DNA from: an uncultured Bacteroidia bacterium
Lineage (GTDB): Bacteria; Bacteroidota; Bacteroidia; Bacteroidales; UBA932
Direction: 5' to 3'
DNA: 64,000 nt
Assembly: GCA_902785065.1 (NCBI GenBank)
Contig: CACZXH010000003.1
Span: forward strand, 53,375-117,374
The notes under the pieces were generated by a model. The model searched no databases and had not been told where the DNA came from. It saw nothing but the letters and a program-made list of their open reading frames with translations. Position numbers and translations under genes: made by a program. This document shows positions 12,574 through 48,196 of the stretch, piece after piece; position 1 is the stretch's first letter, and each line of letters starts with the position of its first letter.

Positions 12574-12576
12574 GAT

Positions 12577-13609: not shown

Positions 13610-13652
13610 CGCAAATCCTTTGAAAAAACGTTATCCTTGTATGCAAAACGGG

Positions 13653-21820: not shown

Positions 21821-21877
21821 AGTTGCACAATCGGGCTCGGGGACAAGTCCGTGTGGGAACGTAAACTTTGTTTTTCA

Positions 21878-23053
21878 ATGAAAAAAGCAACGCTGCTTTT
21901 GCTGTGCGGTGCGCTGGCTTTCTGCGCGTGCCGCAAGGATCCTGTGCCGGAACCGCCGTCCAAGGACGCGGACCTGACCGGCCAGAAGGTCGATGTCTCC
22001 GGTTTCCCGGAATCGGCCCGTAAACTGTTTGTCTTGAACGAAGGGGGCATGGGCGCCAACAATGCGACCCTGGATTTCCTCCGGTTCTCTGACGGGAACT
22101 ACGTCACGGGCGCTTTCAAGAAGATGAATCCGGGCATGGGCGCCGGCCTCGGCGACGTGGGGAACGACGTTGCGGTCCAAGGGGATGATCTTTGGATCGT
22201 CGTGAACAATTCCGGCCTCGTGGAGGTCGTCTCCGCCAAGGATGAGACGGAAATCGCCGCGATTGCGGTTCCCACCCCGCGGAATGTCGCCTTCGACGAC
22301 CAATATGCCTATGTCACTTCCTGGGCGGGCGCCTATGCCACGGGGAGCTATGACGAGAACGGTTATTACACGATTACGGATTCCAAGAACCCGAAGGGCC
22401 AGGTATACCGGATTGACCTGAAAACCAAGAAGGTGGCCGGAAGTGTCGAGGTGGGTTATCAGCCGGAAGGCATCGCTTGCCATGCCGGCAGACTCTATGT
22501 TGCCAACTCCGGCGGCATTTCCAGTCAGCTCCCGCCGGACTACGCCTATGACAACACCCTCAGCATCATCGACACGAAAAGTTTCAAAGTCACGGAGACC
22601 CTTCCGGTGCAGGTGAACCTGAAGAACGTCTATGCGGACGGCCAGGGGAATATTTATGTGACCACCCTCGGTAACTTCTGGGATGTACATTCCGGCCTGT
22701 ATCTGATCCGACCCGGGCAGGGGAATGCCGTCTCCAAGGTAGCGGATTATGTGAGCGTTTCCACCCTTCTCGGGGATACGGTCTATTGCATCGGCACCGA
22801 AACGGAATTCGACTGGAGCGCCACCTCCCATGTCTACCAGTCCTGGAGCGTCCAGGGCGGGAACAAGAAGAATTGGACCTTGAATGTTAGCGCAAAAGTG
22901 CTGTACGGCCTGTATGCGCTGGACTCCGAGACGTTCTTCGTGAGTGACGCCGGGAATTATTTCGATCCGGGCACCGTCTCTTGTTACTACAAAGGCGCCA
23001 GGCGGTGGAGCGTGGACGCCGGCGTCTGCCCTGGGCATTTCGCCTTGTATTGA
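21878..23053 (+). CDS. btuG: BtuG-like cobalamin-binding surface lipoprotein (beta propeller, DUF5074/YncE type)
   Basis: A 391-residue lipoprotein with signal MKKATLLLLCGALAFCAC; the lipidated Cys is predicted at 18. The mature part has YncE-like propeller blades: KLFVLNEGGMGANNATLDF, LGDVGNDVAVQGDDLWIVVN, TPRNVAFDDQYAYVTSW, YQPEGIACHAGRLYVANSG and NTLSIIDTKSFKVTET. In Bacteroides, BtuG binds cobalamin on the cell surface with extreme affinity and caps BtuB. Position directly after a B12 riboswitch and before a BtuB-type receptor strongly supports the same role. The start is set by the signal peptide. Confidence 0.9.
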   Translation: MKKATLLLLCGALAFCACRKDPVPEPPSKDADLTGQKVDVSGFPESARKLFVLNEGGMGANNATLDFLRFSDGNYVTGAFKKMNPGMGAGLGDVGNDVAVQGDDLWIVVNNSGLVEVVSAKDETEIAAIAVPTPRNVAFDDQYAYVTSWAGAYATGSYDENGYYTITDSKNPKGQVYRIDLKTKKVAGSVEVGYQPEGIACHAGRLYVANSGGISSQLPPDYAYDNTLSIIDTKSFKVTETLPVQVNLKNVYADGQGNIYVTTLGNFWDVHSGLYLIRPGQGNAVSKVADYVSVSTLLGDTVYCIGTETEFDWSATSHVYQSWSVQGGNKKNWTLNVSAKVLYGLYALDSETFFVSDAGNYFDPGTVSCYYKGARRWSVDAGVCPGHFALY

Positions 23054-23054
23054 T

Positions 23055-25040
23055 TTGCTGAAGCGCGCTGTCATAGCGCTGGCCGCCGCCTTGTCCGCCC
23101 CCTGGAGCCTGCAGGCCCAGGAGGCGGACACGCTGGCCGCCGCGTCGGTCTGGTCCGTGCAGGTCTATCCCGTGGTGAAGCCCGCCGAGTCGGTGTACCT
23201 GCCGGGCGCGAAAGCGGCGCCCGCCCAGGTGGCGGACGTCCTGCGCCGCTTCACCGGCGTCCAGGTCAAGGACTACGGAGGCGTGGGCGGCCTCAAGACC
23301 GTCAATGTCCGGAGTCTCGGCAGCGAACACGTGGGCATCTTCCTGGACGGGGTCCAGGTGGACAACGCCCAGAACATGCAGGTGGACCTGGGCCGGTTCT
23401 CCACGGACGGTCTGGCGATGGTCTCCCTCTATAATGGGCAGAAAACCAAGCGGTTGCAGACGGCTAAGGAGTACGCGTCCGGCGCGGCGGTCCATCTGGA
23501 CAGCGAGCGGCCCCTGCTGTTTGACCAGGACGGCGGGCGGGCTCGGCTTCGGGGAGGATCGTTCGGGACCTTCCAGCCTTCCCTTCAATGGGACCGGCAA
23601 TGGGGACCGGTTATCCTTCGGGTATCGGCGGAAGGACTGACTTCCAACGGCCGGTACAAGTATCCTTGTTTCGACACGACGCTGGTCCGGGAAAACGGGG
23701 ATATCAAGAGCCTTCGCCTGGAATCAGGCCTGTTCGGACAGTTTCGCCACGGCGACTGGCGCGTCCGGGTGTATGGCTATGGCTCCGAACGGGGATTCCC
23801 CGGTCCGGTCATCCGCCGCGCTTCGGGTTTCCCTTTCAGCGCGGAGCGCCAGGCCGACCGGAATTTCTTCATCCAGGGCGGTTGGAACCAGGATTGGACC
23901 TCCCGGTATGCCACGTCGCTGAAGTTCAAGTTCGCCGACGATTACATCCATTACAACACCCATCCGGAGAAGAATCCGATGGCGCTGCCGTATGACTTGC
24001 ACTACCGCCAGCGGTCCGGCTATCTCTCGCTGGCCCAGTCGCTTGTCCTGGCCGATCCGTGGTCGGTGGACCTGAGCGTCGATCTCCAGCGGAACGCGCT
24101 GGATTCCGATGCCGGCCAGTCTGTCACCCCCCGCAGGAACGTCCTCACGGCCGCCCTGGCGACACGGCTCGCCTGGGAAGATTTCCGCATGGCGGCCCAC
24201 TGCGTCTATCAGGGGGCCTGGGACCGGTTCCTGACGCCGCAGGCCGGCGGATGGACCCGCGAAAACAAGTTCCGGGATGCCTGGATGCCGTCTTTCAGTC
24301 TGTATTATTCCCCGTTCCGCTGGCTGGAAGTGGATGCTTTCGCGAAGCGCAGCTACCGGCTGCCCTCCTTCAATGACCTGTATTATTCGCTGATGGGCAA
24401 TTCCTCCCTCGTCCCGGAATCCGCTTTCCAGACCGGGATCGATATCCGGTTGGAACATGCTTCCGGCCCTTGGTCTTTCGAGGGAAGGATCTCGCCTTAT
24501 AGGAACCGCATTGACGACAAGATCGTGGCCATTCCCACCTCCTCGCAATTCCGCTGGACGATGCTGAACATCGGAAAAGTGGATGTGGCGGGGGTGGATC
24601 TGAAGGCCGATGCACGATTCTGGCGGAAGGGATGGTCGGTGGACGTGACCTTCCGCTACTGTTTCCAGCAGGCGCTGGACCACAGCGATCCGGACAGTCG
24701 CACCTTCGGCAACCAGATCCCCTATATCCCGCTGCACAGCGGCGGTGTGGACCTGTGCGCCGGATGGGAGGACTGGTCTTTCACTTGGGAGACGGTGTTC
24801 ACCGGTGCCAGATGGTCCCGGACGGCCAACACGCCGGACTACTATATCGCCCCCTGGACCGTCAGCGATATCTCCCTCTTCCGGAAAATGACAATGCCCG
24901 CGCTCAAGAACCGGGCGTTGCTGCCGGAATTGAACGCGGGCGTGACGGTCAGGAATCTGTTCAATCACCGTTATCAGGTCGTCCAGGGCTATCCGATGCC
25001 GGGATGCAACCTGATGTTCACGGTGGAGTATTCCTGGTAA
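23055..25040 (+). CDS. btuB: BtuB-like TonB-dependent cobalamin receptor
   Basis: About 661 residues. A short signal peptide (KRAVIALAAALSAPWSLQA-QEAD) is followed by a plug domain (PAQVADVLRRFTGVQVKDYG, NVRSLGSEHVGIFLDGVQVDNAQN) and a 22-strand-type barrel ending in an aromatic residue (VEYSW). No ATG precedes the signal peptide in a sensible position. The frame opens with TTG at 23055, two bases after the btuG TGA, taken here as start; a CTG at 23058 is also possible. With BtuG it should import cobalamin across the outer membrane under the riboswitch. It ends with only four bases before the convergent FKBP stop. Confidence 0.9.
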   Translation: MLKRAVIALAAALSAPWSLQAQEADTLAAASVWSVQVYPVVKPAESVYLPGAKAAPAQVADVLRRFTGVQVKDYGGVGGLKTVNVRSLGSEHVGIFLDGVQVDNAQNMQVDLGRFSTDGLAMVSLYNGQKTKRLQTAKEYASGAAVHLDSERPLLFDQDGGRARLRGGSFGTFQPSLQWDRQWGPVILRVSAEGLTSNGRYKYPCFDTTLVRENGDIKSLRLESGLFGQFRHGDWRVRVYGYGSERGFPGPVIRRASGFPFSAERQADRNFFIQGGWNQDWTSRYATSLKFKFADDYIHYNTHPEKNPMALPYDLHYRQRSGYLSLAQSLVLADPWSVDLSVDLQRNALDSDAGQSVTPRRNVLTAALATRLAWEDFRMAAHCVYQGAWDRFLTPQAGGWTRENKFRDAWMPSFSLYYSPFRWLEVDAFAKRSYRLPSFNDLYYSLMGNSSLVPESAFQTGIDIRLEHASGPWSFEGRISPYRNRIDDKIVAIPTSSQFRWTMLNIGKVDVAGVDLKADARFWRKGWSVDVTFRYCFQQALDHSDPDSRTFGNQIPYIPLHSGGVDLCAGWEDWSFTWETVFTGARWSRTANTPDYYIAPWTVSDISLFRKMTMPALKNRALLPELNAGVTVRNLFNHRYQVVQGYPMPGCNLMFTVEYSW

Positions 25041-25044: not shown

Positions 25045-25650
25045 TTATAGAACCTCGAGAAGTTCGACGACGAACTTCAGGGCGCTGTACGGCGGAATGG
25101 CGTTGCCGGCTCCGTGCTCGCCGTAAGCGAGGTTGTACGGCAGGTAGAGCTCGTACTTGGCGCCTTCGGCCATCAGCTGGAGACCTTCGGTCCAGCCCTT
25201 GATGACCTGGTTCAGGCCGAAGACGGCGGGTTCACCGCGCTTGTAGGAGCTGTCGAAGACCTGGCCGTTCGCAAAGGTGCCCTCGTAGTGGCACTTCACC
25301 TGGCTGGCGGCCTTCGGCTTCTTGCCGGTGCCTTCCTGCAGGACCTTGTACATCAGGCCGCTGCCGGTGGCGCGGACCTCGGGGTCGCGGGCGACCTTGG
25401 CGAGGAACTTCTCGCCTTCCTCCTTCGCGGCGGCGCCGGCTGCGGCGGCCCGCTCGGAAGCCTCTTCCTCCATTTCCTTGTAGAACTGTTCAAGGGCCTC
25501 CCCGGCCTCCTCCATGGAAATGGCGAGCTTGTCTCCCTGGAGCATGGCCTTCAGACCGGCCACGAAATCGTCGAAATTGAGCCCGTGCACTCCGTTCTGG
25601 AGCAGGTTGCCGGCCAGGCTCATGCCGAATGCATAACTTTTCTTGTCCAT
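25045..25650 (-). CDS. FKBP-type peptidyl-prolyl isomerase
   Basis: A 201-residue protein: an N-terminal dimerisation region (MDKKSYAFGMSLAGNLLQNG... about 1-85, FkpA/Mip-like) and a C-terminal FKBP domain (SGLMYKVLQEGTGKKPK, VKCHYEGTFANGQVFDSSYKRGEPAVFGLNQVIKGWTEG in sequence, LPYNLAYGEHGAGNAIPPYSALKFVVELL). It catalyses proline cis-trans isomerisation and acts as a chaperone. Unlike Mip, no signal peptide is visible from the ATG at 25650, so it may be cytoplasmic. The longer frame to 25770 runs over the promoter. Confidence 0.93.
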   Translation of the reverse strand: MDKKSYAFGMSLAGNLLQNGVHGLNFDDFVAGLKAMLQGDKLAISMEEAGEALEQFYKEMEEEASERAAAAGAAAKEEGEKFLAKVARDPEVRATGSGLMYKVLQEGTGKKPKAASQVKCHYEGTFANGQVFDSSYKRGEPAVFGLNQVIKGWTEGLQLMAEGAKYELYLPYNLAYGEHGAGNAIPPYSALKFVVELLEVL

Positions 25651-25718: not shown

Positions 25719-25726
25719 TATATTTG
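25719..25726 (+). promoter_or_regulatory. -7 element (TATATTTG) of the NRPS operon
   Basis: TATATTTG 24 bases before the NRPS ATG. No TTTG lies at N18-20; an activator may be needed. Confidence 0.5.
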
Positions 25727-25750: not shown

Positions 25751-28700
25751 ATGAGTAAGTCCGTTTCCAAGACGTCTCCCGCGGGCCCGGAAGAGGCCCG
25801 TACCTGGTTCGTCGAACATTATTCGGCCTGCGCCGACCTGGATACGCGTCTGATTCCCGACCTGCACACAGGCGGAAAAGGCGAAATGAAGAAGGTGGAA
25901 TGCCCCATAGCCTTTGGAACCAAGGATTTGGATGTGCTTCGCAAGCGTTTCTCCTGCGAAGCGGACATCCTGCTGACGACCGCTTTCGGCGTCACCGTCT
26001 CGGCCTGGAATGCCGATACGAAGGCGTTCTTTCCAACGGGCGGCGGCAAGCGTCCGGTCCTGGTGGAATGGACCCCGGAACAGTCGCTGGAAGAACTGGT
26101 CCGGAACCGGAAGGAACAGGCCGAAGGCGCGGCCCGTTTTGCGGATTATACTTATGAGGACTGCGTCCGTGACCTGGGTCCGGGCTTCTCCGCCTCTTTC
26201 GACGGGCCGGACGACCCAGACGCCGAGGTAGGGGAGGACGCCCTGGCCTTCCGGCTGACGGACGCCGGCAAGGACGGATACAAGCTGGTGTGCCGATTCC
26301 GCTCCGACCAGTATTCGGAAGGCATCCTGCAGCAATTCGCGGACAGTTTCTCCGCCTGCCTGCTGTCCATGGAGAAGGCCGATAAGGTCAGCGACCTCGC
26401 CTTCGCGACGGAAAAGCAGGTGGCCGAGACCGATTCCTTCAACCCGGAACCCTTCCCTGGCGACCCGAATGTGACCCTTCTGGATCTTTTCCGCGAGAAT
26501 GTCGCCAAGTACCCCGACCATCCGGCCGTCGTCTTCCGCGACACGACGCTCACCTATGCGGAACTGGACGCATTGACGGACCGGCTGGCCGCCCATGTCG
26601 CTTCGGTCGTGAAGCCCGGCGGGGTGGTGTCCATTATCCTGAACCGGAACCAGTTCATGGTCATTGCGCCGCTCGGCGTCCTGAAGGCCGGCTGCGCCTA
26701 CGAGCCGCTGGACCCGTCCTACCCGACCGAACGCCTCTCTTTCATGGTCCAGGATGCGGGCGCCTCCCTGCTCATTGCCGATCCCGGCCTGGAAGGCCTT
26801 ATCAGCGGTTATGAGGGACCGGTCCTGTCGACGGACAAGATCCAGTCCCTGCCTGAAGGGAAGGCGAATGTTCCCGCCCCCGCACCGGACGACCTGTTCA
26901 TCCTGCTTTATACGAGCGGAACCACCGGCGTTCCCAAGGGCGTGCAGCTGTGCCATCGGAACATTTCCGTCTTCGCCCGGAACAACGACGCAGCCCTGGG
27001 CATTACGCAGGTTTCGCACACCGCGGCCTATGCCAGTTTCGGTTTCGACGCCAACATGAGCGATTTCTCCACGGCGCTCGCGGCCGGCGCGTCCCTGTAT
27101 ATCATCCCGGAGGAGATCCGGCTGGACCTCCTCGCCCTGAACGAATACTTCGAGCAGAACGGCATCACGCATTCGATGATGACCACGCAGGTGGCCACGC
27201 AGTTCGCCATCAACTTCCCGGAGAACAAGTCCCTGGTGGGCCTGTACACCGGCGGCGAGAAGATGGCCAGTTTCCCCGTGCCCAAGTTCGGCATGTTCAA
27301 CTGCTACGGCCCCACGGAGACGACGGCCTATGTCGTGAGCAAGCACGTGACCGTCCAGGAACCTGACGTTCCAATCGGGCGTCCGCTTCCGGGCGTCCAT
27401 GCCTTCATTGCCGGCAAGGGCGGCTGGCGGATGCCGGTGGGGGCCGCCGGTGAGCTGCTGGTTTCCGGCCTGCAGGTGGGCAAGGGCTATCTCGGACGCC
27501 CGGACAAGACCGCCGAGGTGTTCGTGGACAACCCCTACACCGACGATCCGCTGTTCAAGTCTATGTACCGGACCGGTGACATTGTCCGCTGGCGCGCCGA
27601 CGGGGACATCGAGTTCATCGGCCGCAAGGACATGCAGGTCAAGATCCGGGGCTTCCGGATCGAACTGAAGGAGGTAGAGAGCGTGATCCGGGAGTTCCCC
27701 GGCATCACGGACGTGACGGTCCAGGCCTTCGACGAGGAAGGCGAGGGCGGCGGCAAGTTCCTGGCGGCGTACGTCGTCAGCGATGCCCCCGTGGACATTG
27801 ACGCCCTGAATGCGTTCATCCTGGAGCGCAAGCCCCCGTACATGGTCCCTTCCGTGACCATGCAGATTGAGGCCATCCCCCTGAATGTCAATCAGAAAGT
27901 GGACCGGAAGGCCCTTCCGAAGCCTGAGGTCCGCAAGGCGGAGAAGCCCGCGGTGGAAGCGCCGCTCAATATCCTGGAACAGGACATCGCCGCGCTGATC
28001 AAGGAATCCGCGCACATCGACGGGTTCTCCCTGACGGACCCGCTCGTCTATGCCGGCCTGACCTCCCTGTCAGCCCTGCGGCTGGCTGTGGAGCTGCACA
28101 AGAAATACGGTATCTCGGTGGACATGCACACCTTCGTCAAGACGGCGACCCTGCAGAGCATCGAGAATGAGATCCTTACCTCCCTGATTTCCGGGCAGGC
28201 CGCCCACGGAGCGGGCATCGCCACGCACGGGACCGGCCCGCAGCCGTTGACTTTCCAACAGGCGGGCCTCTATTTCGAGTGCATGAAGGCCCCGGCCCAA
28301 ACGGTCTATAACCTGCCGGTGATCTGGACCCTCCCGGGGTCCCTGGATCCGGAGAAAGTCCGGGAAGCCGTTCTGAAAGTAATCAAGTGCCATCCGGTCC
28401 TGAATTCCCACTTCGAGATGCAGGAAGGGAAGGTGATGCTCGTCCCCTGTGACCAGGAACCGGAGGTGGGCTTTTCAACCATCCCGGAGGAGAACCTCGC
28501 GGACTGCAAGGCCCATTTCCTGGAGCCGTTCAATCTCGGCGAAGGCCCCTTGTACCGCGCTGAAATCGTGAAGGCGGGCGAAGGCCTGTACCTGCTCACC
28601 GATTTCCATCACCTGGTCTTCGACGGCCGTTCCATGGACATCTTCATGGCGGAACTCTGCGCCGCCGTGGACGGCGTGGATCCGAACCCGGAAGAATATA

Positions 28701-31700
28701 CTTATTACGATTATGCCGCGGACCAGAAAGCCGCGGAGGAAGGCGAGGAATTCGCCGCTGCGGCCGCGTTCTTCCAGGAGAAGATGGCAGGCTGCGAAGG
28801 CGCCAGCGCCATCCTGCCTGACAAGGAGAAGGGCGACGCCGCCGGCGTGGTGGCCTCGCTGGAAATCCCCGTGGACGGGAAGATCTCCGAGCGATGCCTG
28901 GCGCTGGGCATTTCTCCCGCCAGCTATTTCCTGTCCGCCACGTTCCTGGCCGTGAGCGCGTTCTGCGGCAGCAAGAAGGTCTATATCTGCACCGTCAGCA
29001 ACGGCCGTTCGGACCTGAGAGTCTCCGACACGATGGGTATGTTCGTCAATACGCTGGCCCTCGCGGGTGACACGGGTGTCGAGCAGGTGACGGATTATCT
29101 CAAAGAGACGGACAGTCTTTTCTCTGAAAGCCGCGCGCACGAATACTATCCCTTCGCCAAGGTCTCTTCCGACTTCGGTTTCCAGCCGCAGGTGATGATG
29201 GCCTATCAGGTGGGCCTGCTGGAGACCTACAAGATGGGCGGCGCCGAGATTACCTCCGAGGACCTTGCCACCGAGACGCCGATGTTCCCCGTGAGCATCT
29301 TTGTCAATGGCGGGGAAGCGGCCGAAAGCATCCTTATCCAGTACGACGAGACCCTGTATAGCCGGGAACTCATGCAGAGCTTCGCCAGTACGATGGCGCA
29401 GGCGTTGCGCGGGATGCTCGCGGACGGTCCGATGGACGGCATCGCGCTCATTGACAAGAAACAGGAGAAACTCCTGGACGGTTTCAATGCCTATACCCTC
29501 CCGGTGGACACCACACAGACCATCGTGTCCCTGTTCCGGGCCCAGGCAGCCCAGCGGCCGGACGCCCCGGCGGTGTGCTATGGAGGCAAGACGCTGACAT
29601 ACCAGGAACTGGACGAAGTGTCCGACCGGATCGCCGCCCACATCGCCTCGCTGGGTCTCGGACGGGAAGACGTCGTCTCCGTCCTGATCGGCCGCAGCGA
29701 AAACATGGCCGTTGCCTCTCTCGGCGCCCTCAAGGCCGGCTGCGCCTATCAGCCGCTGGATCCTTCCTATCCCGAGGAGCGCCTGAACTTCATGATCGGG
29801 GATGCGTCCGCGAAGCTGCTCATTGCCGATGCGCAGTACCGGCCCCTGATTACGTCCTATGCGGGCCCCGTTCTGGACACCGCGGACATCGCCGCGCTGC
29901 CTTCGGGTCCCGTCCCGGAAGGTCCGGTTCCCGAGAACCTGTTCATCCTCCTGTATACTTCGGGTTCCACCGGTGTCCCGAAGGGCTGCATGCTGGAGCA
30001 CCGCAACCTGGTGAACTTCTGCGCCTGGTACCGGAACTATTATGCCCTCACCCCGGAAAGCCGGGTGGCGGCCTATGCCAGCTACGGCTTCGACGCTTGC
30101 ATGATGGACATGTATCCCGCCCTGACGACGGGTGCCTCTGTCTACATTATTCCGGAGGAGACCCGGCACGACATGTCGGAACTGGACCGCTTCGTCACGG
30201 AGAACGGCATCACGCACAGCTTCATGACCACGCAGGTGGGCGTGATGTTCGCCTTGAATTATCCGGAAAATCCTTCCTTGAAACATTTGTCCGTGGGCGG
30301 CGAGAAGCTCGTGTCCATGGACCCGCCTTCCTACGCCTTCCACAACGGGTACGGCCCGACGGAATGCACCATCTTCTCTACGATCTTCGACGTGCAGAAG
30401 AAGGAGCCGAACATTCCCATCGGCCATCCGCTGGACAATCTGCGGCTGTATGTGACGGACACCGCCGGCCGCCGGCTCCCCGCCGGAGCCGTCGGCGAGC
30501 TCTGGATTTCCGGCCCGCAGGTGAGCCGGGGCTACCTGAACCGTCCGGAAAAGACCGCAGAGACCTTCATCGCCAATCCGTTCGCCCAGGAATATCCCTA
30601 TGACCGGGCGTACCGGACCGGCGACATTGTCCGGTACAGGCTGGACGGCAACATCGAATTCGTGGGCCGCAACGACGGCCAGGTCAAGATCCGGGGCTTC
30701 CGGGTGGAGACCAAGGAAGTGGAGGCCGTCATCCGGGAATTCCCGGGCGTGAAGGACGTGACGGTCCAGCCGTTCGACAATCCGGCCGGCGGCAAGTTCA
30801 TCGCCGCCTACGTCGTGTGCGAAGGGGACCTGGACACCAAGGCCCTGTCCGCCTTCATTCTGGAGCGGAAACCGCCGTACATGGTCCCGGCCGCTTTCGC
30901 GAAACTGGACAAGATTCCGCTCAACGTGAACCAGAAGGTGGACCGCAAGGCGCTGCCGGCTCCTGTGATGACTTCGGGCGGCGACTATGTCCAGCCCGAG
31001 GGCCCGACCGAGACCGCCCTGTGCGAAGTCTTCGCCGAAATCCTGGGCATGGAGCGCGTGGGCGCCACCGACAGCTTCTTCGACCTTGGCGGCTCCTCGC
31101 TCATGGTGACGAGCGTGCTGGTGAGCGCCGAAAAGCGCGGTCTGAAGTTCTCCTACGGCGACGTGTTCAACAATCCGACGGCCCGCGCCCTGGCGGCCTT
31201 CCTGACTGGAGGCGCCGAAGCGCCTGCCGATGACAAGGATGATGTCACCGCCTACGACTATTCCGCCATCGAAAAACTGCTCACGGGCAATACCCTGGAG
31301 GCTTTCCAGACCGGAGAACGTCGCGGACTGGGGAAAAACATCCTGCTTACGGGCGCGACCGGCTTCCTGGGCATCCACGTCCTGCGCGAACTGATCGAGC
31401 AAACCGGGAAGGACACTGTCATTTGGTGCCTCCTCCGGGGCAAGGGCGCCATCACCGCGGAGCGACGCCTGTCCGAGATGCTGGTTTACTATTTCGAGAA
31501 GAACTACCGGCCGCTCATGGGCAATCGGATCCGGCTGATTGAAGGCGACATCACCGGTGCGGAGATCTTCGACGCCCTGCTTGTGTCCGGTACCCCGTTC
31601 GACCTGGTGGTGAACTGCGCGGCCAACGTCAAGCACTTCTCCCGCGGCGACGATATCCTGAAAGTCAATTACGTCGGCGTCCAGAACCTCGTCGGCTTCT

Positions 31701-32443
31701 GCATGGCCGCGAAGGCCCGGCTGGTCCAGGTGTCCACCATCAGCGTGGGCGGCATGACCGAGGGCTCCGTGCCGGTGGTCATGGACGAGCAGATGCTGTT
31801 CTTCGGGCAGAATACGGACAACCAGTACGTCGTGTCCAAGTTCCTGGCCGAACGGTGCATCCTGGAGAAGGTCGCTGAAGGCCGCCTGGATGGCAAGATC
31901 ATCCGGGTGGGCAACCTGTCCCCGCGCGCGGTGGACGGCGAGTTCCAGATCAACTTCAACTCGAATGCCTCGATGGGACGCCTGAAGGCGTACCGGATGC
32001 TGGGCGGATGCCCGTACCCGCTGCTGGAAGAACGGATGGAATTCTCGCCGATCGACCAGACCGCCCGCGCCGTCGTCCTGCTGGCCGGAACGCCGGCCGC
32101 GAACGTGGTTTTCCACGTCCAGAATGACCATATGCTGCCGATGGACGATATCCTTTCCCGGCTCCACAAGGATGACGGAAGCCCCCTGGACTATCTGGAG
32201 GTGGAAGCATTCGTGCGCCGGATGGACGAGGCCAAGGCCGATCCGGAGAAGGCCCGGATCCTTTCGAGCATCATCGCCTATACGCAGGCGGAAGGCCAGG
32301 TCCAGATGGTGGAGAACGTGGCTTCGAGCGTCTTCTCCATGCAGGTACTGCACCGGCTGGGATTCCGCTGGGACGAGACTTCCAGCGCGTATGTGGACAT
32401 GATTTTCCGCCTCCTGGATTCTTTCCGTTTCTTTGACGATTGA
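25751..32443 (+). CDS. Two-module nonribosomal peptide synthetase with terminal thioester reductase (partial C-A-T-C-A-T-R)
   Basis: 2,230 residues. Residues 1-230 match only the C-terminal half of a condensation domain and lack HHxxxDG. A1 spans about 245-725 (LYTSGTTGVPKG near 386, CYGPTETT, YRTGDIV). T1 has GLTSLSALRL with Ser near 770. C2 has an intact HHLVFDG near 952. A2 spans about 1250-1735 (LYTSGSTGVPKG near 1400, GYGPTECT). T2 is DLGGSSLMV near 1780. The NAD(P)-binding reductase has TGATGFLG near 1866. It should join two amino acids and release them reductively as a peptide aldehyde or alcohol, which may cyclise. By-eye specificity codes are DASMYGCAYK (A1) and DAMFSGGIFK (A2); substrates are not assigned. 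It is followed after five bases by an RsbU-type gene. Confidence 0.93.
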   Translation: MSKSVSKTSPAGPEEARTWFVEHYSACADLDTRLIPDLHTGGKGEMKKVECPIAFGTKDLDVLRKRFSCEADILLTTAFGVTVSAWNADTKAFFPTGGGKRPVLVEWTPEQSLEELVRNRKEQAEGAARFADYTYEDCVRDLGPGFSASFDGPDDPDAEVGEDALAFRLTDAGKDGYKLVCRFRSDQYSEGILQQFADSFSACLLSMEKADKVSDLAFATEKQVAETDSFNPEPFPGDPNVTLLDLFRENVAKYPDHPAVVFRDTTLTYAELDALTDRLAAHVASVVKPGGVVSIILNRNQFMVIAPLGVLKAGCAYEPLDPSYPTERLSFMVQDAGASLLIADPGLEGLISGYEGPVLSTDKIQSLPEGKANVPAPAPDDLFILLYTSGTTGVPKGVQLCHRNISVFARNNDAALGITQVSHTAAYASFGFDANMSDFSTALAAGASLYIIPEEIRLDLLALNEYFEQNGITHSMMTTQVATQFAINFPENKSLVGLYTGGEKMASFPVPKFGMFNCYGPTETTAYVVSKHVTVQEPDVPIGRPLPGVHAFIAGKGGWRMPVGAAGELLVSGLQVGKGYLGRPDKTAEVFVDNPYTDDPLFKSMYRTGDIVRWRADGDIEFIGRKDMQVKIRGFRIELKEVESVIREFPGITDVTVQAFDEEGEGGGKFLAAYVVSDAPVDIDALNAFILERKPPYMVPSVTMQIEAIPLNVNQKVDRKALPKPEVRKAEKPAVEAPLNILEQDIAALIKESAHIDGFSLTDPLVYAGLTSLSALRLAVELHKKYGISVDMHTFVKTATLQSIENEILTSLISGQAAHGAGIATHGTGPQPLTFQQAGLYFECMKAPAQTVYNLPVIWTLPGSLDPEKVREAVLKVIKCHPVLNSHFEMQEGKVMLVPCDQEPEVGFSTIPEENLADCKAHFLEPFNLGEGPLYRAEIVKAGEGLYLLTDFHHLVFDGRSMDIFMAELCAAVDGVDPNPEEYTYYDYAADQKAAEEGEEFAAAAAFFQEKMAGCEGASAILPDKEKGDAAGVVASLEIPVDGKISERCLALGISPASYFLSATFLAVSAFCGSKKVYICTVSNGRSDLRVSDTMGMFVNTLALAGDTGVEQVTDYLKETDSLFSESRAHEYYPFAKVSSDFGFQPQVMMAYQVGLLETYKMGGAEITSEDLATETPMFPVSIFVNGGEAAESILIQYDETLYSRELMQSFASTMAQALRGMLADGPMDGIALIDKKQEKLLDGFNAYTLPVDTTQTIVSLFRAQAAQRPDAPAVCYGGKTLTYQELDEVSDRIAAHIASLGLGREDVVSVLIGRSENMAVASLGALKAGCAYQPLDPSYPEERLNFMIGDASAKLLIADAQYRPLITSYAGPVLDTADIAALPSGPVPEGPVPENLFILLYTSGSTGVPKGCMLEHRNLVNFCAWYRNYYALTPESRVAAYASYGFDACMMDMYPALTTGASVYIIPEETRHDMSELDRFVTENGITHSFMTTQVGVMFALNYPENPSLKHLSVGGEKLVSMDPPSYAFHNGYGPTECTIFSTIFDVQKKEPNIPIGHPLDNLRLYVTDTAGRRLPAGAVGELWISGPQVSRGYLNRPEKTAETFIANPFAQEYPYDRAYRTGDIVRYRLDGNIEFVGRNDGQVKIRGFRVETKEVEAVIREFPGVKDVTVQPFDNPAGGKFIAAYVVCEGDLDTKALSAFILERKPPYMVPAAFAKLDKIPLNVNQKVDRKALPAPVMTSGGDYVQPEGPTETALCEVFAEILGMERVGATDSFFDLGGSSLMVTSVLVSAEKRGLKFSYGDVFNNPTARALAAFLTGGAEAPADDKDDVTAYDYSAIEKLLTGNTLEAFQTGERRGLGKNILLTGATGFLGIHVLRELIEQTGKDTVIWCLLRGKGAITAERRLSEMLVYYFEKNYRPLMGNRIRLIEGDITGAEIFDALLVSGTPFDLVVNCAANVKHFSRGDDILKVNYVGVQNLVGFCMAAKARLVQVSTISVGGMTEGSVPVVMDEQMLFFGQNTDNQYVVSKFLAERCILEKVAEGRLDGKIIRVGNLSPRAVDGEFQINFNSNASMGRLKAYRMLGGCPYPLLEERMEFSPIDQTARAVVLLAGTPAANVVFHVQNDHMLPMDDILSRLHKDDGSPLDYLEVEAFVRRMDEAKADPEKARILSSIIAYTQAEGQVQMVENVASSVFSMQVLHRLGFRWDETSSAYVDMIFRLLDSFRFFDD

Positions 32444-32448
32444 TCAGA

Positions 32449-34230
32449 ATGGCCTCTTTCATCGACAGAATCCGCACTTTTTTCATGCAGAGGAAAGGCT
32501 CCCGCCTGGTCCTCATCCTCCTGGCGGCCCTCTTCCTGGAGGTGGTCGCCGTGGTGCAGTATACCTATACGCGCAACATGCTGATTCAGGAAGAAGAACG
32601 GATTACGCGGATGGAACTGACGATGGAGTCCGATGTCATCCTCAATACCCTGAGGGAGGCGGAACTGTCGATGCGCGAGAATGAGTGGAGTGTCCTGCAG
32701 AGCCTGGCACACCCGGATTCCCTGTTCGGAGCGGCCGAGCGGATGATCGAGAGCAATCCGCGCGTCGCGGGCGCCTGTATCGCCGTCCTGCCGGATTATT
32801 ATCCGGCTAAAGGCCGGCTGTTCGAGCCCTATGCCCACAAGGAAGGGGGCCGGATCGTGGTGGAGCAGATTGCCGGTCCCGACCACGACTATACGCTGGG
32901 TCCCGACTTCCAGCGGGCGCTCCGGGAGGAGATGGATTTCTGGAGCGACCCTTATGCCTATGGTACGGACCCGGTCCGGCAACTGACCACCTACACCTAT
33001 TCCGTCCGGGACCGGTCGGGCCGTCTCGCGGCCATCTGCGGTCTGGATATCGACCTGACCTGGCTCAGCGACACGCTGAATGTCAATCCGTACTACCCCT
33101 CCAGCTTCGGTTTCTTGCTCACGCGGAGCGGACAGCTGGTGGCCGGGCCCCGGGAGGAAGACGTCCCGCCTGAAACCGTGGACTATGTGGCGGGCCTGGT
33201 GATGGATCCGACGGTCGAACGGACCATCCGGGGGCGTCATCGGGTCAATTGCATCGTATTCCAAGATCCCGTCAACGGGGAAGAGGCTTATCTCGATTTC
33301 AAGGCTCTGCCGCGGGATCCGGGCTGGATCGTCGCAGAGGTGTCCTACCGGGATGAGGTGCTTGCTCCGGTTCGTCCGATGATGTGGCGGATCATGCTGA
33401 TGGCGCTCGCGGGTCTGGCTTTCCTCCTCTTCATCCTCGACCGTTTCGCCCGGAACGGGAAGCGGCTCTGGGAGGCGGATGTGAAGCAGGCCCGCATCGG
33501 GAGCGAGCTCCGGGTCGCCCGGCGCATCCAGGAGGAAATGCTGCCGAAGTCTTCCCTGGACCGGAGCGACCTGACCGCCCGGGGATCCCTGGCTCCGGCC
33601 AAGGAGGTGGGGGGAGACCTCTTCGACTACTTCGTCCGGGAAGGGAAACTGTTCTTCTGCGTGGGAGACGTGTGCGGGAAAGGCGTTCCTGCCGCCATGG
33701 TGATGGCCGTCACCCATGCCATCCTGCGGATGCTTTCCGAGCAGGAGGAGGCTCCGGCCCGGATTGTCGGGGAACTCAACCGCGAAGCGTGCCGGAACAA
33801 TGCGACGGGGACGTTCGTGACGCTCTTCCTGGGGGTGTTGGACTTGTCCACGGGCCGCTTGCGGTACTGTAACGCCGGCCATGACCGGCCGATCCTCGTC
33901 GGCGACTCCGTGGAGGAACTGCCGGCCTTGGCGAATGTTCCCGTGGGCGTGTTCGACGACTTTACGTACCAGGAACAGGAAGCTATGGTCGCCGCCGACT
34001 CTCTCCTGTTTCTCTATACGGATGGGGTGACAGAATCGAAGGATGTCGACCGTCAACAGTATGGCCGGGACCGGCTCCTCGAAGCCTTGTCGGCCTGTTC
34101 CCGGAAGCCGGACGCCCTGATCCAAGCGGTCGGGGCCGATGTCCGGGCCTTCGCCGGGGAGGCCGAACAGAGTGACGACATCACGATGCTCGCCGTCCAC
34201 TATCATCCGAAGGAAAACGCAAAAGGCTGA
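32449..34230 (+). CDS. Membrane sensor with RsbU/SpoIIE-type PP2C phosphatase domain
   Basis: 593 residues: a membrane helix at about 18-38 (LVLILLAALFLEVVAVVQY), an extracytoplasmic Cache-like sensor (about 40-300), a second helix (MALAGLAFLLFILDRF, about 320-335), a short linker and a SpoIIE/PP2C phosphatase (RRIQEEMLPKSS, VGGDLFDYF, GDVCGKGVPAAMVMA, LGVLDLSTGRLRYCNAGHDRP, LFLYTDGVTES, SDDITMLAV). Metal-binding Asp residues are present. RsbU enzymes dephosphorylate STAS anti-anti-sigma factors in response to a signal, and the next gene is such a STAS protein. ATG 32449 lies five bases after the NRPS stop; an overlapping in-frame TTG (32440) is also possible. Either way it is co-transcribed with the NRPS. 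Confidence 0.93.
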   Translation: MASFIDRIRTFFMQRKGSRLVLILLAALFLEVVAVVQYTYTRNMLIQEEERITRMELTMESDVILNTLREAELSMRENEWSVLQSLAHPDSLFGAAERMIESNPRVAGACIAVLPDYYPAKGRLFEPYAHKEGGRIVVEQIAGPDHDYTLGPDFQRALREEMDFWSDPYAYGTDPVRQLTTYTYSVRDRSGRLAAICGLDIDLTWLSDTLNVNPYYPSSFGFLLTRSGQLVAGPREEDVPPETVDYVAGLVMDPTVERTIRGRHRVNCIVFQDPVNGEEAYLDFKALPRDPGWIVAEVSYRDEVLAPVRPMMWRIMLMALAGLAFLLFILDRFARNGKRLWEADVKQARIGSELRVARRIQEEMLPKSSLDRSDLTARGSLAPAKEVGGDLFDYFVREGKLFFCVGDVCGKGVPAAMVMAVTHAILRMLSEQEEAPARIVGELNREACRNNATGTFVTLFLGVLDLSTGRLRYCNAGHDRPILVGDSVEELPALANVPVGVFDDFTYQEQEAMVAADSLLFLYTDGVTESKDVDRQQYGRDRLLEALSACSRKPDALIQAVGADVRAFAGEAEQSDDITMLAVHYHPKENAKG

Positions 34231-34261
34231 TTTTAAATGATATAAATACTTCGTTAGGAAT

Positions 34262-34564
34262 ATGAAAACAACTGTAAAAGAACTGGATGGAAGACTGGTC
34301 GCCGTTCTCACCGGCGAACTGGATACCGCCTCCGCCGCCGAGACGGAAGCCGCACTCAAGCCCTTGTTTGAAAGCACAGGAAAGGACCTCGTCCTCGACT
34401 GCTCCAATCTGGAGTACATTGCCTCGAGCGGCATCCGCATCCTGGTGAACCTGCTCAAGACGGCGAAGGCGAAGGGAGACCAGGTTGTTCTGAAGAATGT
34501 CAACGAGGTGATCCGGGACGTGCTGGAGCTTACCGGGTTCGTTTCCTATTTCGATTTCGAATGA
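34262..34564 (+). CDS. STAS-domain anti-sigma factor antagonist
   Basis: A 100-residue SpoIIAA/RsbV-like protein: GRLVAVLTGELDTASAAE, LVLDCSNLEYIASSGIRILV (the conserved phospho-site Ser in ASSGI) and KNVNEVIRDVLELTGF. Such proteins, when dephosphorylated by an RsbU-type phosphatase, bind an anti-sigma kinase (RsbW). The upstream phosphatase is the obvious partner; no RsbW or cognate sigma factor is present in the window. Its TGA overlaps the next ATG (ATGA at 34561). Confidence 0.94.
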   Translation: MKTTVKELDGRLVAVLTGELDTASAAETEAALKPLFESTGKDLVLDCSNLEYIASSGIRILVNLLKTAKAKGDQVVLKNVNEVIRDVLELTGFVSYFDFE

Positions 34565-35850
34565 AACGGCTTGCCCTGATTCTCCTCGCCGCCCTGCCGC
34601 TCTGCGCCCGGGCGCAGGATCATGCGTTCTCGGTCGATGCCGATTACCTCACGCGCGGTGAAATCCGGCGTGGCGGCATTTCTGTCGAGGAAGACGGGGA
34701 TGCGCTGCACTCGCGTTTCATTCTCAGCAGGACCCGTCTGGGAGCGACCTACTCCCGCGACTGGCTCACGGCGCGGCTGACCGCCCAGCACGCCGACACC
34801 TGGGGAAGTGCGGCTGGAAACGCCCTGTCCATGAACGAGGCCTGGGTAAAGGCGCAGTTCCCGGTGGGCCTCTTCGCCCAGCTGGGACGCCAGCGTCTCT
34901 CCTATGACGACCAGCGTATCTTCGGCGCGGACGACTGGTCCATGACCGGCTACTCCCACGACGGCTTGAAGCTGGGGTTCGAGCGTGCCGGGCACAAAGT
35001 CCATCTGTTCGGCGCCTATAACCAGAACGTGGACAACATCGACCAGGGCGGTACCCGTTTCAGCGGAGGAATCCAACCCTACAAGTCCCTGGCTTCCCTG
35101 TGGTATCACTACGATATCCCGAAGTCGAATATCGGCGCCTCCCTTCTCTTTGTCAATATGGGCCTGGAATACATAGATTTCAAAGAGGATACTTATGCGA
35201 CGTGTTTCCAGCAGCTTGCCGGCACTTTCCTGTCCTGGACGCCGAAGCATTTCGGGCTGGAGGCGTCCTATTACCACCAGTGGGGGAAGGCCAATGGGAA
35301 CATCCCCCTGAATGCCTGGATGGCCAGCGCAAAGGCCACGGCCACGCCCTCGGAACACTGGTCCTTCCGGGCCGGCTATGATTACTTGAGCGGCGAAGAG
35401 GATTTCCCCATTCCGGGCGGCGGAAACATCGGCCTGGTGCGCCACGAAATCGTCCGGGGATTCAATTCCCTGTACGGTTCGAACCACAAGTTTTACGGGG
35501 CGATGGATTTCTTCTATGTATCGACGTACGTGAACGGATTCACGCCCGGCCTCCAGAATCTCTATGCCGGCATTTCGTGGAGTCCGGTCAAGCCCTTGTC
35601 GGCGGATGCCGCCATCCATTTCTTCTCCACGGCCGCCCCGGTCCAGGATGCCAAGAAAGCCCTGGGACACGAGATGGAGTTGGAGGTGACCTGGACCATC
35701 CTCCCTTCCGTGTCGCTCAGCGCCGGCTATTCATTCATGCTGGGCACCGAGACCATGTCCATCCTCAAACGAAGCGCCGACAACAACCGGCTGCACTGGG
35801 GCTGGCTGATGCTGAACGTGACCCCGACCTTCTTCAAGACCAGATGGTAA
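34561..35850 (+). CDS. Outer-membrane beta-barrel protein (alginate-export/porin-like)
   Basis: 429 residues with signal peptide MKRLALILLAALPLCARA-Q. The rest is alternating amphipathic strands (LHSRFILSRTRLGATYSRDW, AWVKAQFPVGLFAQLGRQRL, SYDDQRIFGADDW) ending in an aromatic-rich strand (LMLNVTPTFFKTRW). The LGRQ...Y.DQR pattern resembles the alginate-export (AlgE-like) family. It overlaps the STAS gene by four bases, so it belongs to the NRPS-RsbU operon. It could be an export or uptake pore for the NRPS product or simply a stress-regulated porin; the sequence does not decide. Confidence 0.8.
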   Translation: MKRLALILLAALPLCARAQDHAFSVDADYLTRGEIRRGGISVEEDGDALHSRFILSRTRLGATYSRDWLTARLTAQHADTWGSAAGNALSMNEAWVKAQFPVGLFAQLGRQRLSYDDQRIFGADDWSMTGYSHDGLKLGFERAGHKVHLFGAYNQNVDNIDQGGTRFSGGIQPYKSLASLWYHYDIPKSNIGASLLFVNMGLEYIDFKEDTYATCFQQLAGTFLSWTPKHFGLEASYYHQWGKANGNIPLNAWMASAKATATPSEHWSFRAGYDYLSGEEDFPIPGGGNIGLVRHEIVRGFNSLYGSNHKFYGAMDFFYVSTYVNGFTPGLQNLYAGISWSPVKPLSADAAIHFFSTAAPVQDAKKALGHEMELEVTWTILPSVSLSAGYSFMLGTETMSILKRSADNNRLHWGWLMLNVTPTFFKTRW

Positions 35851-35858
35851 GCTGAAAA

Positions 35859-36431
35859 ATGACCCTGATCGAGACCATTGAGATCTTCGCCCTGGTGACC
35901 GGTGTCGCCTACGTCGTCCTGGAGATCCTCCAGAAGAATGCGATGTGGGTGGTGGGCATCCTCACCGGGGCGGCCTGCGCCTACAGCTTCGCGGTGCAGC
36001 GGAGCTGGGGGATGATGGGCCTGAACATTTATTACATCGTGATGTCCGTCATCGGCCTCATCCAGTGGCGGAAGGACGGAGCCGCCGTGGGGGAGGATGT
36101 GATCCATCTGCGGCCTTTGCCGAAGAAAACGGCCATTTGGAGCGCCGTGGGCTTTGTCCTGGGGTCCCTCGTCCTGATCTGGGTGTTCCGCGCCCTGGGG
36201 GATGGCGTCTCTGAACTGGACGCCCCCGCAACCGTCCTGAGCGTCATTGCGACCTGGTGGCTCACCCGTTCGTATATCCAGCAGTGGATGCTGTGGGTGG
36301 TGGCCGACGCCCTCACCTCGATGCTGTGCGTGGTGAACGGCCAGTACTGGATGGCGTTCCTGTATCTCGCCTACATCGCCTCGGCGGTGTACGGCTATTA
36401 TCATTGGAAAAAGAAAGGAGTGGAACTATGA
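35859..36431 (+). CDS. pnuC: Nicotinamide riboside transporter PnuC
   Basis: 190 residues with seven or so membrane helices. PnuC hallmarks are AYVVLEILQKNAMWVVGILT, WGMMGLNIYYIVMSVIGLIQW, ATWWLTRSYIQQWMLWVVAD and NGQYWMAFLYLAYIASAVYGYYHW. It mediates facilitated uptake of nicotinamide riboside. It starts eight bases after the barrel gene and overlaps the kinase gene by four bases (ATGA). Confidence 0.93.
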   Translation: MTLIETIEIFALVTGVAYVVLEILQKNAMWVVGILTGAACAYSFAVQRSWGMMGLNIYYIVMSVIGLIQWRKDGAAVGEDVIHLRPLPKKTAIWSAVGFVLGSLVLIWVFRALGDGVSELDAPATVLSVIATWWLTRSYIQQWMLWVVADALTSMLCVVNGQYWMAFLYLAYIASAVYGYYHWKKKGVEL

Positions 36432-45369: not shown

Positions 45370-46248
45370 CTAATAACGCAGAATCTGAAGTTCCTCCTTG
45401 GAATACAGCAGCGGATCCAGCAGCCCCGGTGCAATCCGGCTCAGCAGCACGAACACCAGCAGCAACCCCACCAGCACGCTCAACACAATCCATAAGATCC
45501 TCCACAGTTTTCGATGCGATTCCTTCGGCTTCACCTCGTCATTCCCGACCTGATCGGGAATCTCCTCTACCTTTGCGGGTACATTTATCGGCTCCGGTTC
45601 CGGTTCGGACTCCTCTTTGTCATTTCGACCAAGCGCAGTGCGTGGAGAAATCTCCTCCGCAACCGGTTCCTCCTCCTCATTTCCGACGTGATCTTCCTCG
45701 TCATTCCTGGCCTCCTTTTCGTCATTCCGGGCTTGCTCTTCGTCATTCCGGGCTTGACCCGGAATCTCCTCGATCAACTCCGCCAGCCCCGCAACTGCCG
45801 TCGCTACCTCTTCGGGCGTCTCGACGTGCGTCTTGAGGGAGAGGGGAGCGAGGCCCAGGCCTTCGGGATAGATGTCCAGGTCCTCGTCGGCCACGAAGAA
45901 GAAATGGTTCTCGCGCGTGGCGCGGAGGCGTCCCAGGCCCGGGAAGACGACCGTCTTCTTGACCTTCAGGACCTCCTTCATCTCGGTGAGGAACTCCGTC
46001 AGGATGCGGGTGGCCATGTCGGTATCGACCTCCTCGTTATCCCGGGCGTACAGGTCCACGAGATACGTGTCGCCGCCCTGCTTCGGGGAGAAATACAGCC
46101 GGCGGTAGGGAGGGTTGATCGTATAGCCCTTGTCGGAAAAGGTGGAGGGCACCAGTTCGGCCACGAAACAGCCGACCCCGGGCAGGGTCACGGTGTCATG
46201 GTCCAGGATAGCCTCCTTCACCATTTTTGCAAGCAGATCGATATCCAT
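45370..46248 (-). CDS. HU-CCDC81-type membrane-anchored protein with repeat-encoded linker
   Basis: 292 residues. Residues 1-125 resemble the HU-like CCDC81 domains of Bacteroidota (MDIDLLAKMVKEAILDHDTV, LPGVGCFVAELVPS, INPPYRRLYFSPK, FPGLGRLRATRENHFFFV). Residues about 160-240 are a highly acidic linker full of GQARNDE, QARNDEK, ALGRNDK and DQVGNDE units, encoded by dispersed palindromic repeats. A single membrane helix follows (LWRILWIVLSVLVGLLLVFVLL, about 255-276). HU-CCDC81 proteins are often linked to SPOR/cell-envelope proteins. It is the first gene of the operon with thioesterase, transporter and NUDIX. Start 46248 follows a TATCTTTG element. Confidence 0.8.
   Translation of the reverse strand: MDIDLLAKMVKEAILDHDTVTLPGVGCFVAELVPSTFSDKGYTINPPYRRLYFSPKQGGDTYLVDLYARDNEEVDTDMATRILTEFLTEMKEVLKVKKTVVFPGLGRLRATRENHFFFVADEDLDIYPEGLGLAPLSLKTHVETPEEVATAVAGLAELIEEIPGQARNDEEQARNDEKEARNDEEDHVGNEEEEPVAEEISPRTALGRNDKEESEPEPEPINVPAKVEEIPDQVGNDEVKPKESHRKLWRILWIVLSVLVGLLLVFVLLSRIAPGLLDPLLYSKEELQILRY
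45538..45769. repeat. Cluster of GTCATTCC...GGAATCTCC palindromic repeats inside the HU-CCDC81 gene
   Basis: Full units lie at 45538-45565 (GTCATTCCCGACCTGATCGG then GAATCTCC), 45619-45655 (GTCATTTCGACCAAGCGCAG... GAAATCTCC) and 45742-45769 (GTCATTCCGGGCTTGACCCG then GAATCTCC). Partial GTCATTCC units lie near 45700 and 45721. Translated on the minus strand they give RNDE/GNDE-type residues. Confidence 0.8.
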
Positions 46249-46273
46249 CGCGGTCAGTTTCAGATTCGCGATG

Positions 46274-46281
46274 CAAAGATA
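46274..46281 (-). promoter_or_regulatory. -7 element (TATCTTTG) of the HU-CCDC81 operon
   Basis: The minus strand reads TATCTTTG 25 bases before the ATG at 46248; divergent from the tRNA promoter. Confidence 0.55.
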
Positions 46282-46302
46282 GTGAAAAAAACCGCAAAAA
46301 AG

Positions 46303-46333
46303 TTTGGAGTTTCCGAAAAAGGTTGTACCTTTG
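46303..46333 (+). promoter_or_regulatory. Promoter of tRNA-Asn
   Basis: TTTG (46303-46306), N19, TACCTTTG (46326-46333): an ideal Bacteroidota promoter, predicting a start about 37 bases before the mature tRNA. Confidence 0.8.
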
Positions 46334-46376
46334 CAATCCCGAAACAACAACAGGGCATCCGCAAGGATGAAAACAT

Positions 46377-46453
46377 TCCTCAGTAGCTCAGTTGGTTAGA
46401 GCATCTGACTGTTAATCAGAGGGTCCTAGGTTCAAGTCCTAGCTGGGGAGCCA
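46377..46453 (+). tRNA. tRNA-Asn(GTT)
   Basis: A cloverleaf folds cleanly. The acceptor stem is TCCTCAG / CTGGGGA (one G-U pair), the D arm has AGCTCAGTTGGTTAGAGC, the anticodon arm is TCTGA-CTGTTAA-TCAGA with anticodon GTT, and the T arm is CCTAG-GTTCAAGT-CCTAG. Discriminator G is followed by CCA (46451-46453). The last part of the gene (from 46416) overlaps, antisense, the 3' end of the island's serine recombinase, marking the insertion site. Confidence 0.96.
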
Positions 46454-48047: not shown

Positions 48048-48184
48048 ACTTTCTTTGCTACTTCAAAAACTGCTATTGAATAAAATACAAGGAAGTCGGC
48101 CAACTGGTCGGCCTCCTCGTCAGTAAGGTTTTCACAACCCTTGATCTGTTTAATCTCATCGATTGATAGTTTTAGGTTTTCCAA
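48044..48184 (-). CDS. Small acidic ORF coupled to the serine recombinase
   Basis: 46 residues from a TTG start (ENLKLSIDEIKQIKGCENLT, then DEEADQLADFLVFYSIAVFE and VAKKV). A stop codon lies immediately upstream of the TTG, and no in-frame ATG exists. Its TGA overlaps the recombinase ATG, suggesting translational coupling. The pattern SIDEIKQIKGCENLTDEEADQLADFL looks like a small helical protein often found beside Bacteroidota recombinases. The function is unknown; it may be a recombination accessory factor. Confidence 0.5.
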   Translation of the reverse strand: MENLKLSIDEIKQIKGCENLTDEEADQLADFLVFYSIAVFEVAKKV

Positions 48185-48196
48185 TTACATTGCGTG

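Follow-up and report, generated by a model that had tools for sequence, protein, structure and literature searches.

To our knowledge, nonribosomal peptide synthetases (NRPSs) of gut anaerobes that end in a reductase domain are thought to make reactive peptides in response to triggers that are largely unknown. Here we describe such a synthetase in a 64,000-nucleotide stretch of contig CACZXH010000003.1 from an uncultured Bacteroidia bacterium (Bacteroidales, UBA932), hereafter the window, where it leads a four-gene run (positions 25751-35850) that also encodes a membrane sensor phosphatase, a STAS protein, and an AlgE-like outer-membrane β-barrel. A similar neighborhood has already been reported in a rumen archaeon, so the arrangement is not wholly new, although a first-pass annotation of the window had not recognized it. 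In Methanobrevibacter ruminantium M1, the NRPS mru0068 lies in the cluster mru0066-0071, surrounded by two serine phosphatases, an anti-sigma factor antagonist, and MatE, and the authors suggest functions in sensing, regulation, and export (Leahy et al. 2010, PMC2812497). In both systems, an NRPS is found next to a serine phosphatase and an anti-sigma factor antagonist, and both have rumen links. The differences are that M1 is an archaeon, that the text on its cluster mentions no outer-membrane barrel, and that its cluster contains MatE, whereas no MATE match is found in the window; a fusion of the M1 proteins is not stated there, and the M1 NRPS is given a first-module condensation (C) domain and a thioesterase in the text and a thioester reductase in the legend to Figure S8 (PMC2812497). 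The likeness rests on the published description of the M1 cluster rather than on sequence comparison.

The synthetase itself can be compared with AusA, the aureusimine/phevalin synthetase of Staphylococcus aureus, in which adenylation (A), thiolation (T), condensation, and reductase (R) domains are ordered A1-T1-C-A2-T2-R. AusA reductively releases a dipeptide aldehyde that cyclizes to a pyrazinone, and its cluster includes the phosphopantetheinyl transferase (PPTase) AusB (PMC12153313). The window NRPS matches this module order, with one intact C domain and intact reductase motifs. The AusA model NF047350 is its best NCBIfam match, at 946.3 bits, which falls below the cutoff of 2500. No PPTase is shown in the window, which has partner-switch genes instead; the one PF01648 (PPTase) match in the window genome is on contig 9.

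Partner switching of the Rsb type acts on sigma-B, and SypE carries a receiver domain rather than a PDC domain. In RsbU/RsbV/RsbW of Bacillus and SypE/SypA of Vibrio fischeri, a PP2C phosphatase opposes an RsbW-like kinase at a STAS protein; SypE combines phosphatase and kinase in one protein, as do many relatives of the present locus, unlike the window copy (PMC12826045). Compared with RsbU-RsbV-RsbW, the window has the phosphatase Asp motifs and the STAS Ser, but neither a kinase in the locus nor SigB/F/G over the cutoff was found. The SiaABCD system of Pseudomonas aeruginosa, in which the phosphorylation state of a small antagonist-like protein depends on a PP2C phosphatase and a kinase, has a non-sigma output, as is proposed here, and SiaABC(D) is, by analogy, a precedent for such an output (PMC7647112). 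It differs in that a diguanylate cyclase takes part in the output, the kinase SiaB is a separate protein, and the abstract names no NRPS (PMC7647112). The response regulator TciR, which contains an RsbW-like domain, controls indigoidine production in a strain that, according to the authors, lacks an RsbV homologue (PMC12826045). A survey of rumen clusters counts NRPS clusters, and its passages on them do not discuss these regulators (PMC8241843). In the open-access literature, searched by titles and the starts of abstracts, no paper beyond that on M. ruminantium was found on this arrangement; the topics covered were NRPSs with SpoIIE/STAS in Bacteroidetes or with an anti-sigma factor antagonist, partner switching in biosynthesis, and MATE-HATPase fusions. 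As far as these searches go, the new elements are the spread and variable wiring of the arrangement in ruminant-gut Bacteroidales, its link to an AlgE-like barrel, the missing kinase of the window copy, the absence of SigB/F/G over the cutoff, and kinase-MATE fusions.

All four genes lie on the + strand. The NRPS gene (25751-32443, 2230 aa) ends five bases before the ATG of the phosphatase gene (32449-34230, 593 aa), the STAS gene (34262-34564, 100 aa) follows after 31 bases, and the barrel gene (34561-35850, 429 aa) shares four bases with the STAS stop. These genes and spacings, described in the first-pass annotation, were confirmed by open reading frames and Pfam. A scan of the window found no terminator-like site and no + strand promoter motif between the operon genes, including positions 32440-32460 at the NRPS/phosphatase junction, where that annotation had held that a promoter or terminator would count against its reading. 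A Bacteroidetes-type -7 promoter motif, TATATTTG, is found at 25719-25726 (+ strand), 24 bases 5' of the NRPS start codon. The core TANNTTTG, which we take to be the Bacteroidetes -7 consensus, next occurs on the + strand 15.8 kb on, at 41565, and the window holds 34 such sites versus 12.7 expected. On the - strand, it is also found at 25668, beside a gene (25045-25650, - strand) that presumably, judging from its sequence, encodes an FKBP-type peptidyl-prolyl isomerase; this gene lies outside the operon and marks its upstream edge. The four genes look like one operon, probably transcribed together.

The synthetase is ordered starter-C remnant-A1-T1-C2-A2-T2-R, and Pfam recognizes two AMP-binding domains, two PP-binding domains, one Condensation domain, and one NAD_binding_4 (reductase) domain. 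The C2 domain (28241-29425, + strand) has an intact HHLVFDG motif, and the only HHxxxDG of the protein is at residue 953. The terminal reductase domain (31316-32440, + strand) retains GATGFLG and YxxxK, of which Y171 and K175 are invariant across 12 aligned sequences. Of a starter C domain, only the C-terminal half remains (residues 1-245; 25751-26485, + strand), the half that would carry HHxxxDG being missing; residues 14-245 align with residues 180-445 of the intact starter C domain in a relative, L061 (loci are given L numbers and genomes G numbers). The closest NRPS homologue among the matches listed, L118, is 81% identical in its reductase domain, has the same length, and likewise has a single HHxxxDG. 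From these features and the N-terminal half-domain alignment, the starter domains of both proteins are judged to be broken. Family knowledge would predict that such an enzyme does not N-acylate its product and therefore yields a free-amine dipeptide aldehyde able to cyclize. Adenylation specificity codes, read by eye from motif alignments, gave nothing recognizable and were not used.

The phosphatase consists of a PDC/Cache sensor domain (32587-33438; Pfam MCP-like_PDC_1) and a SpoIIE/PP2C domain (33484-34203) whose Asp motifs, which we assume to have their usual role, are intact. The STAS protein has a Ser55 that is invariant in 14 of 14 sequences and that we take, by analogy, to be the phosphorylated Ser of SpoIIAA-type proteins. 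The first-pass annotation had described an RsbU-STAS module; SpoIIE and STAS are indeed present, but the kinase half, whose absence it did not see, is missing. Pfam finds no RsbW-like kinase domain in the phosphatase, which ends just after SpoIIE, and no RsbW-type kinase is found anywhere in the window. In contrast, the kinase is in the same predicted protein as SpoIIE in 27 of the 38 SpoIIE loci among the best 80 loci described below, and 30 of the 35 related loci that combine SpoIIE with STAS have a kinase; in the other five (L119, L121, L122, L124, and L125), none is found in the fetched stretch. The fused RsbW-type HATPases carry motifs resembling the N, G1, and G2 boxes. With no kinase in cis, the kinase of the window system would have to act in trans. 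HATPase_c_2 exceeds its cutoff at two places in the window genome (G000; 2.74 Mb, 50 contigs). One, on contig 12, is fused to a sister phosphatase and encoded next to RelA- and APH-like genes; the other is a 142-aa protein on contig 7 whose neighbors resemble NuoE/NuoF by eye. The contig-12 protein would be the likelier candidate, and Pfam STAS exceeds its cutoff in this genome only in the window and on contig 12.

The recurrence of this linkage was examined in the best 80 of at least 547 confirmed NRPS loci from a scan of named genomes, some with two loci per genome (L118 and L124 are on one contig). Switch genes (SpoIIE, STAS, or RsbW-like HATPase, from a six-frame HMM scan) were counted anywhere in a fetched stretch; absences are not firm because each stretch ends 10 kb from the reductase domain and little is seen upstream of the NRPS. 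At least one switch gene is found in 44 of the 80 loci and in 37 of the 46 whose NRPS frame is flanked on each side by 2 kb or more. These counts become 43/80 and 36/46 without L192, whose STAS match spans only 159 bases, and they include a partial SpoIIE (L148) and two loci counted on a MATE-fused kinase alone (L158 and L187). SpoIIE by itself is found in 38 of the 80 loci and in 32 of the 46 well-flanked ones versus 0.57 expected, the expectation deriving from a density of 48 SpoIIE in 50.1 Mb of 23 genomes, a set taken from earlier scans rather than from the genomes that hold the 80 loci. Inclusion of G450 (40 SpoIIE matches), which was left out of that density, would raise the expectation to about 1 of 46. 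Chance neighborhood is rejected by this excess, which is not a count of independent events because the loci are related. Bacteroidota is named in 79 of the 80 locus titles, and 59 of the 80 mention either a ruminant as host or an isolate labeled RUG, which we take to mean rumen uncultured genome. In a family-level sample, the NRPS is found at E ≤ 1e-100 in 22 of 199 genomes, and in an order-level sample, the reductase domain is found at E ≤ 1e-50 in 7 of 393, the window genome included in both. Of the stretches fetched, 10 of the 20 family-scan ones (G057 and G138 were left out) and 3 of the 6 order-scan ones contain SpoIIE or STAS. G045 and G461 each have just one SpoIIE in the genome, and it adjoins the NRPS. 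The gene-order search that the first-pass annotation had proposed shows that NRPS-phosphatase-STAS linkage recurs in many genomes, sometimes with a barrel or MATE. The link between NRPS and partner switch is real and more general than that annotation saw.

The wiring of the linkage varies. In the 44 linked loci, the nearest switch gene is upstream of the NRPS on the same strand in 21 and on the opposite strand in 15, and downstream on the same strand in 5 and on the opposite strand in 3. One recurrent order is PDC-SpoIIE-HATPase, STAS, barrel, NRPS; another has phosphatase and STAS divergent from the NRPS; and the order of the window (NRPS, phosphatase, STAS, barrel) is also seen in L166/L067, L068, and L178. 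A single hitch-hiking block is rejected because gene order and orientation vary. On a tree of NRPS reductase domains, linkage does not cluster (32 changes for linked loci versus 34.2 when shuffled, with 132 of 500 shuffles as low), a test in which the "cut" group, 35 of 102 rows, also contained all loci of the family and order scans that lack a switch gene, whether or not they were cut. For the trees, L061/L119, L062/L122, L063/L121, L064/L128, L067/L166, and L101/L193 were merged as duplicates. The NRPS of L067 (G176, 6886-14100) is in two open frames separated by one in-frame stop, which may be real or an assembly error. A phylogeny of 70 SpoIIE proteins groups the window phosphatase, with 98/98 support, in a set of 28 proteins, 26 of them NRPS-linked and 2 barrel-linked. 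The main RelA-linked lineage (15 of 17 rows RelA-linked) is separate with 99/96 support, and further NRPS-linked phosphatases are placed elsewhere.

The first-pass annotation ascribed sigma factor control to such modules. Under this explanation, an RsbW-like anti-sigma kinase would hold an alternative sigma factor until the STAS protein released it for transcription of the NRPS. SpoIIE, STAS, and, in many relatives, HATPase_c_2 do form the classical set, and Leahy et al. also read such neighbors as regulators of NRPS expression (PMC2812497). However, SigB/F/G over the TIGR02980 cutoff is found in 0 of 14 genomes, that of the window included, a search that covers only that type of sigma factor. 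Matches below the cutoff (111-120 bits) are in frames of 286-347 aa that, by their size, we take to be the primary sigma factor. The operon has neither a kinase nor a sigma gene, and the kinases of relatives are often fused to membrane proteins, either the phosphatase or MATE. The lack of SigB/F/G over the cutoff in these genomes makes classical sigma control unlikely, and we regard it as very improbable overall.

The sensor domain bears on another proposal, autoinduction, in which the exported peptide would bind the PDC/Cache domain and drive its own production. The domain is encoded in the same operon as the NRPS, which speaks for this proposal. Nevertheless, sister phosphatases carry a sensor of this kind in RelA-type operons whose stretches contain no NRPS, and PDC is missing from some of the SpoIIE proteins that are NRPS-linked (L061, L126, and L131); we consider autoinduction highly doubtful. 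The sister operon encodes a RelA_SpoT synthetase-like protein, an HD_4 hydrolase-like protein, an APH-like kinase, PDC-SpoIIE-HATPase, and STAS, with varying completeness (L081-L085, L090-L096, L098-L100, L113, L116, and L200; Pfam was run on L094, and the remaining loci were labeled by sequence match). A partner switch beside alarmone-type enzymes suggests that it may control (p)ppGpp.

The AlgE-like assignment of the barrel comes from Pfam (Alginate_exp) and from an AlphaFold model (pLDDT 75, 13 sequences in the alignment), whose 17 best PDB matches are all AlgE (TM 0.62-0.65, 13-15% identity). The barrel is a possible export channel. STAS is followed by a barrel in 11 of the best 80 loci, as in the window, and a MATE exporter is found in 6 of the 80. 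By Pfam, an RsbW-like domain is fused to MATE in L069, L070, L108, and L198, although the C-domain-like neighbor in L108, a short contig with no NRPS, is recognized only by look, and a second pump in L198 reaches Pfam for MatE only. Sequence or HMM matches place the fusion also in L101/L193, L158 (cut), and L187. These observations bear on the alternative that what the switch controls is the exporter or outer-membrane channel and not peptide synthesis, phosphatase-STAS-barrel being the unit and the NRPS one of several cargoes. Besides the STAS-barrel pairs and the kinase-MATE fusions, it draws support from L086 (G175, 2869-9296) and L087 (G091), where PqqD, NTP_transf_5, and an ABC transporter neighbor a barrel and PDC-SpoIIE-HATPase and the stretch lacks an NRPS (labels from Pfam run on L086). 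However, a barrel is found in only 16 of the 80 loci versus 38 for SpoIIE, a count that may miss diverged barrels, and we judge this alternative rather unlikely. The neighbors in L086 and L087 are RiPP-like, and this control pair there accompanies a peptide cluster of a different kind.

The distribution of the kinase-MATE fusion was examined in two scans. In a phylum scan, the fusion protein matches 15 of 395 genomes, and the matches listed span the MATE part only. In the family of the Lachnospiraceae-titled genome that holds L198 (G979), it matches 225 of 250 genomes, at least 24 of them over nearly the whole query, which overturns, for that family, the idea that the fusion is rare. In 21 regions (L198 and L223-L242, the latter taken from the best matches, not a random sample), NRPS A, C, or R domains are found in 12, SpoIIE in 7, and STAS in 6. 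L198 itself has an NRPS with MATE-HATPase, SpoIIE-HAMP, a separate HATPase, a GH3-family protein, and an alkyl-sulfatase-like protein; by gene content, it is a Bacillota version of the cluster.

Several observations weigh against reading the operon as an NRPS with its own controller. The first-pass annotation had held that homologous NRPSs without the switch neighbors would undo its proposal, and some are of this kind. Switch genes are absent from 9 of the 46 well-flanked loci (L118, L142, L149, L150, L159, L167, L168, L169, and L173); SpoIIE and STAS are absent from 10 of the 20 family-scan stretches (six from genus g22 plus L066, L074, L076, and L078), of which some are cut at contig ends, and from 3 of the 6 order-scan stretches, all short or cut in this way; the remaining loci keep such neighbors. 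The absence in L118 concerns the closest NRPS among the matches listed, although its paralogue L124, about 50 kb away on the same contig, has switch genes, and the L118 genome has one match to the window phosphatase, at 32%. In g22, an ECF sigma gene and a PPTase accompany the NRPS instead, and the controller pair occurs apart from any NRPS in the stretches of L086 and L087. In addition, the window phosphatase is on a long branch (0.67), which, with the missing kinase, indicates that this copy may be changing role. Taken further, these features and the switch-free L118 would fit a decaying remnant that has lost its kinase, with a drifting phosphatase and STAS stuck in one state. We think this improbable, as the Asp motifs and Ser55 are intact, open frames and tight spacing are kept, and the five other SpoIIE and STAS loci noted above also have no kinase in the stretch. 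The g22 loci (L071-L073, L077, L079, and L080) have a related reductase-ended NRPS and no SpoIIE. In L073, where Pfam was run, an ECF sigma factor, a 404-aa protein, and the PPTase lie upstream of the NRPS, and by this gene content, g22 has a different regulator for a similar enzyme.

We give about an even chance to the reading that the operon combines biosynthesis of a reductively released dipeptide with its own post-translational partner-switch controller of synthesis or export. In this mechanism, the NRPS would release a peptide aldehyde that cyclizes to a pyrazinone. The membrane phosphatase would sense a periplasmic ligand through its PDC/Cache domain and dephosphorylate STAS, opposed by an RsbW-like kinase that phosphorylates it, and the phosphorylation state of STAS would switch a non-sigma partner, most likely the synthetase or the export path. 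A stronger form, which we advance only tentatively, is that peptide assembly and secretion are themselves the direct targets of partner switching, with STAS binding the synthetase or the exporter and the kinase welded to MATE allowing the pump to read the switch. A reactive peptide would then be released only when the sensor allows it, without new transcription, by a module common to gut Bacteroidota, Lachnospiraceae-titled Bacillota, and, from its published description, a rumen archaeon. The recurring pairings in ruminant-gut bacteria suggest a possible shared way of controlling such peptides. A sensor-phosphatase/STAS module beside these NRPSs offers a concrete, genetically testable switch; the MATE-kinase fusion and the AlgE-like barrel suggest how peptide release could couple to it; and fixing STAS in one phosphorylation state would be a handle for turning on silent clusters.

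The gene after the barrel, pnuC (35859-36431, + strand), starts eight bases 3' of it and encodes a PnuC nicotinamide riboside transporter by profile matches (Pfam NMN_transporter). It is probably on the same transcript and probably not part of the NRPS/switch system; no PnuC match is found in the 20 labeled family-scan loci, the best 80 loci not having been searched for it. PADLOC gave no defense match for the phosphatase, STAS, or barrel. Just upstream of the operon, on the + strand, are genes for a TonB-dependent receptor (22944-25040) and a DUF5074 protein (21851-23053). Farther downstream, positions 46000-56000 form a low-GC island (0.39-0.45 versus about 0.60) with serine recombinases (46416-48047 and 52645-53307) and a type IIG/ISP restriction-methylase (48789-51896), which from its gene content looks like a mobile element.

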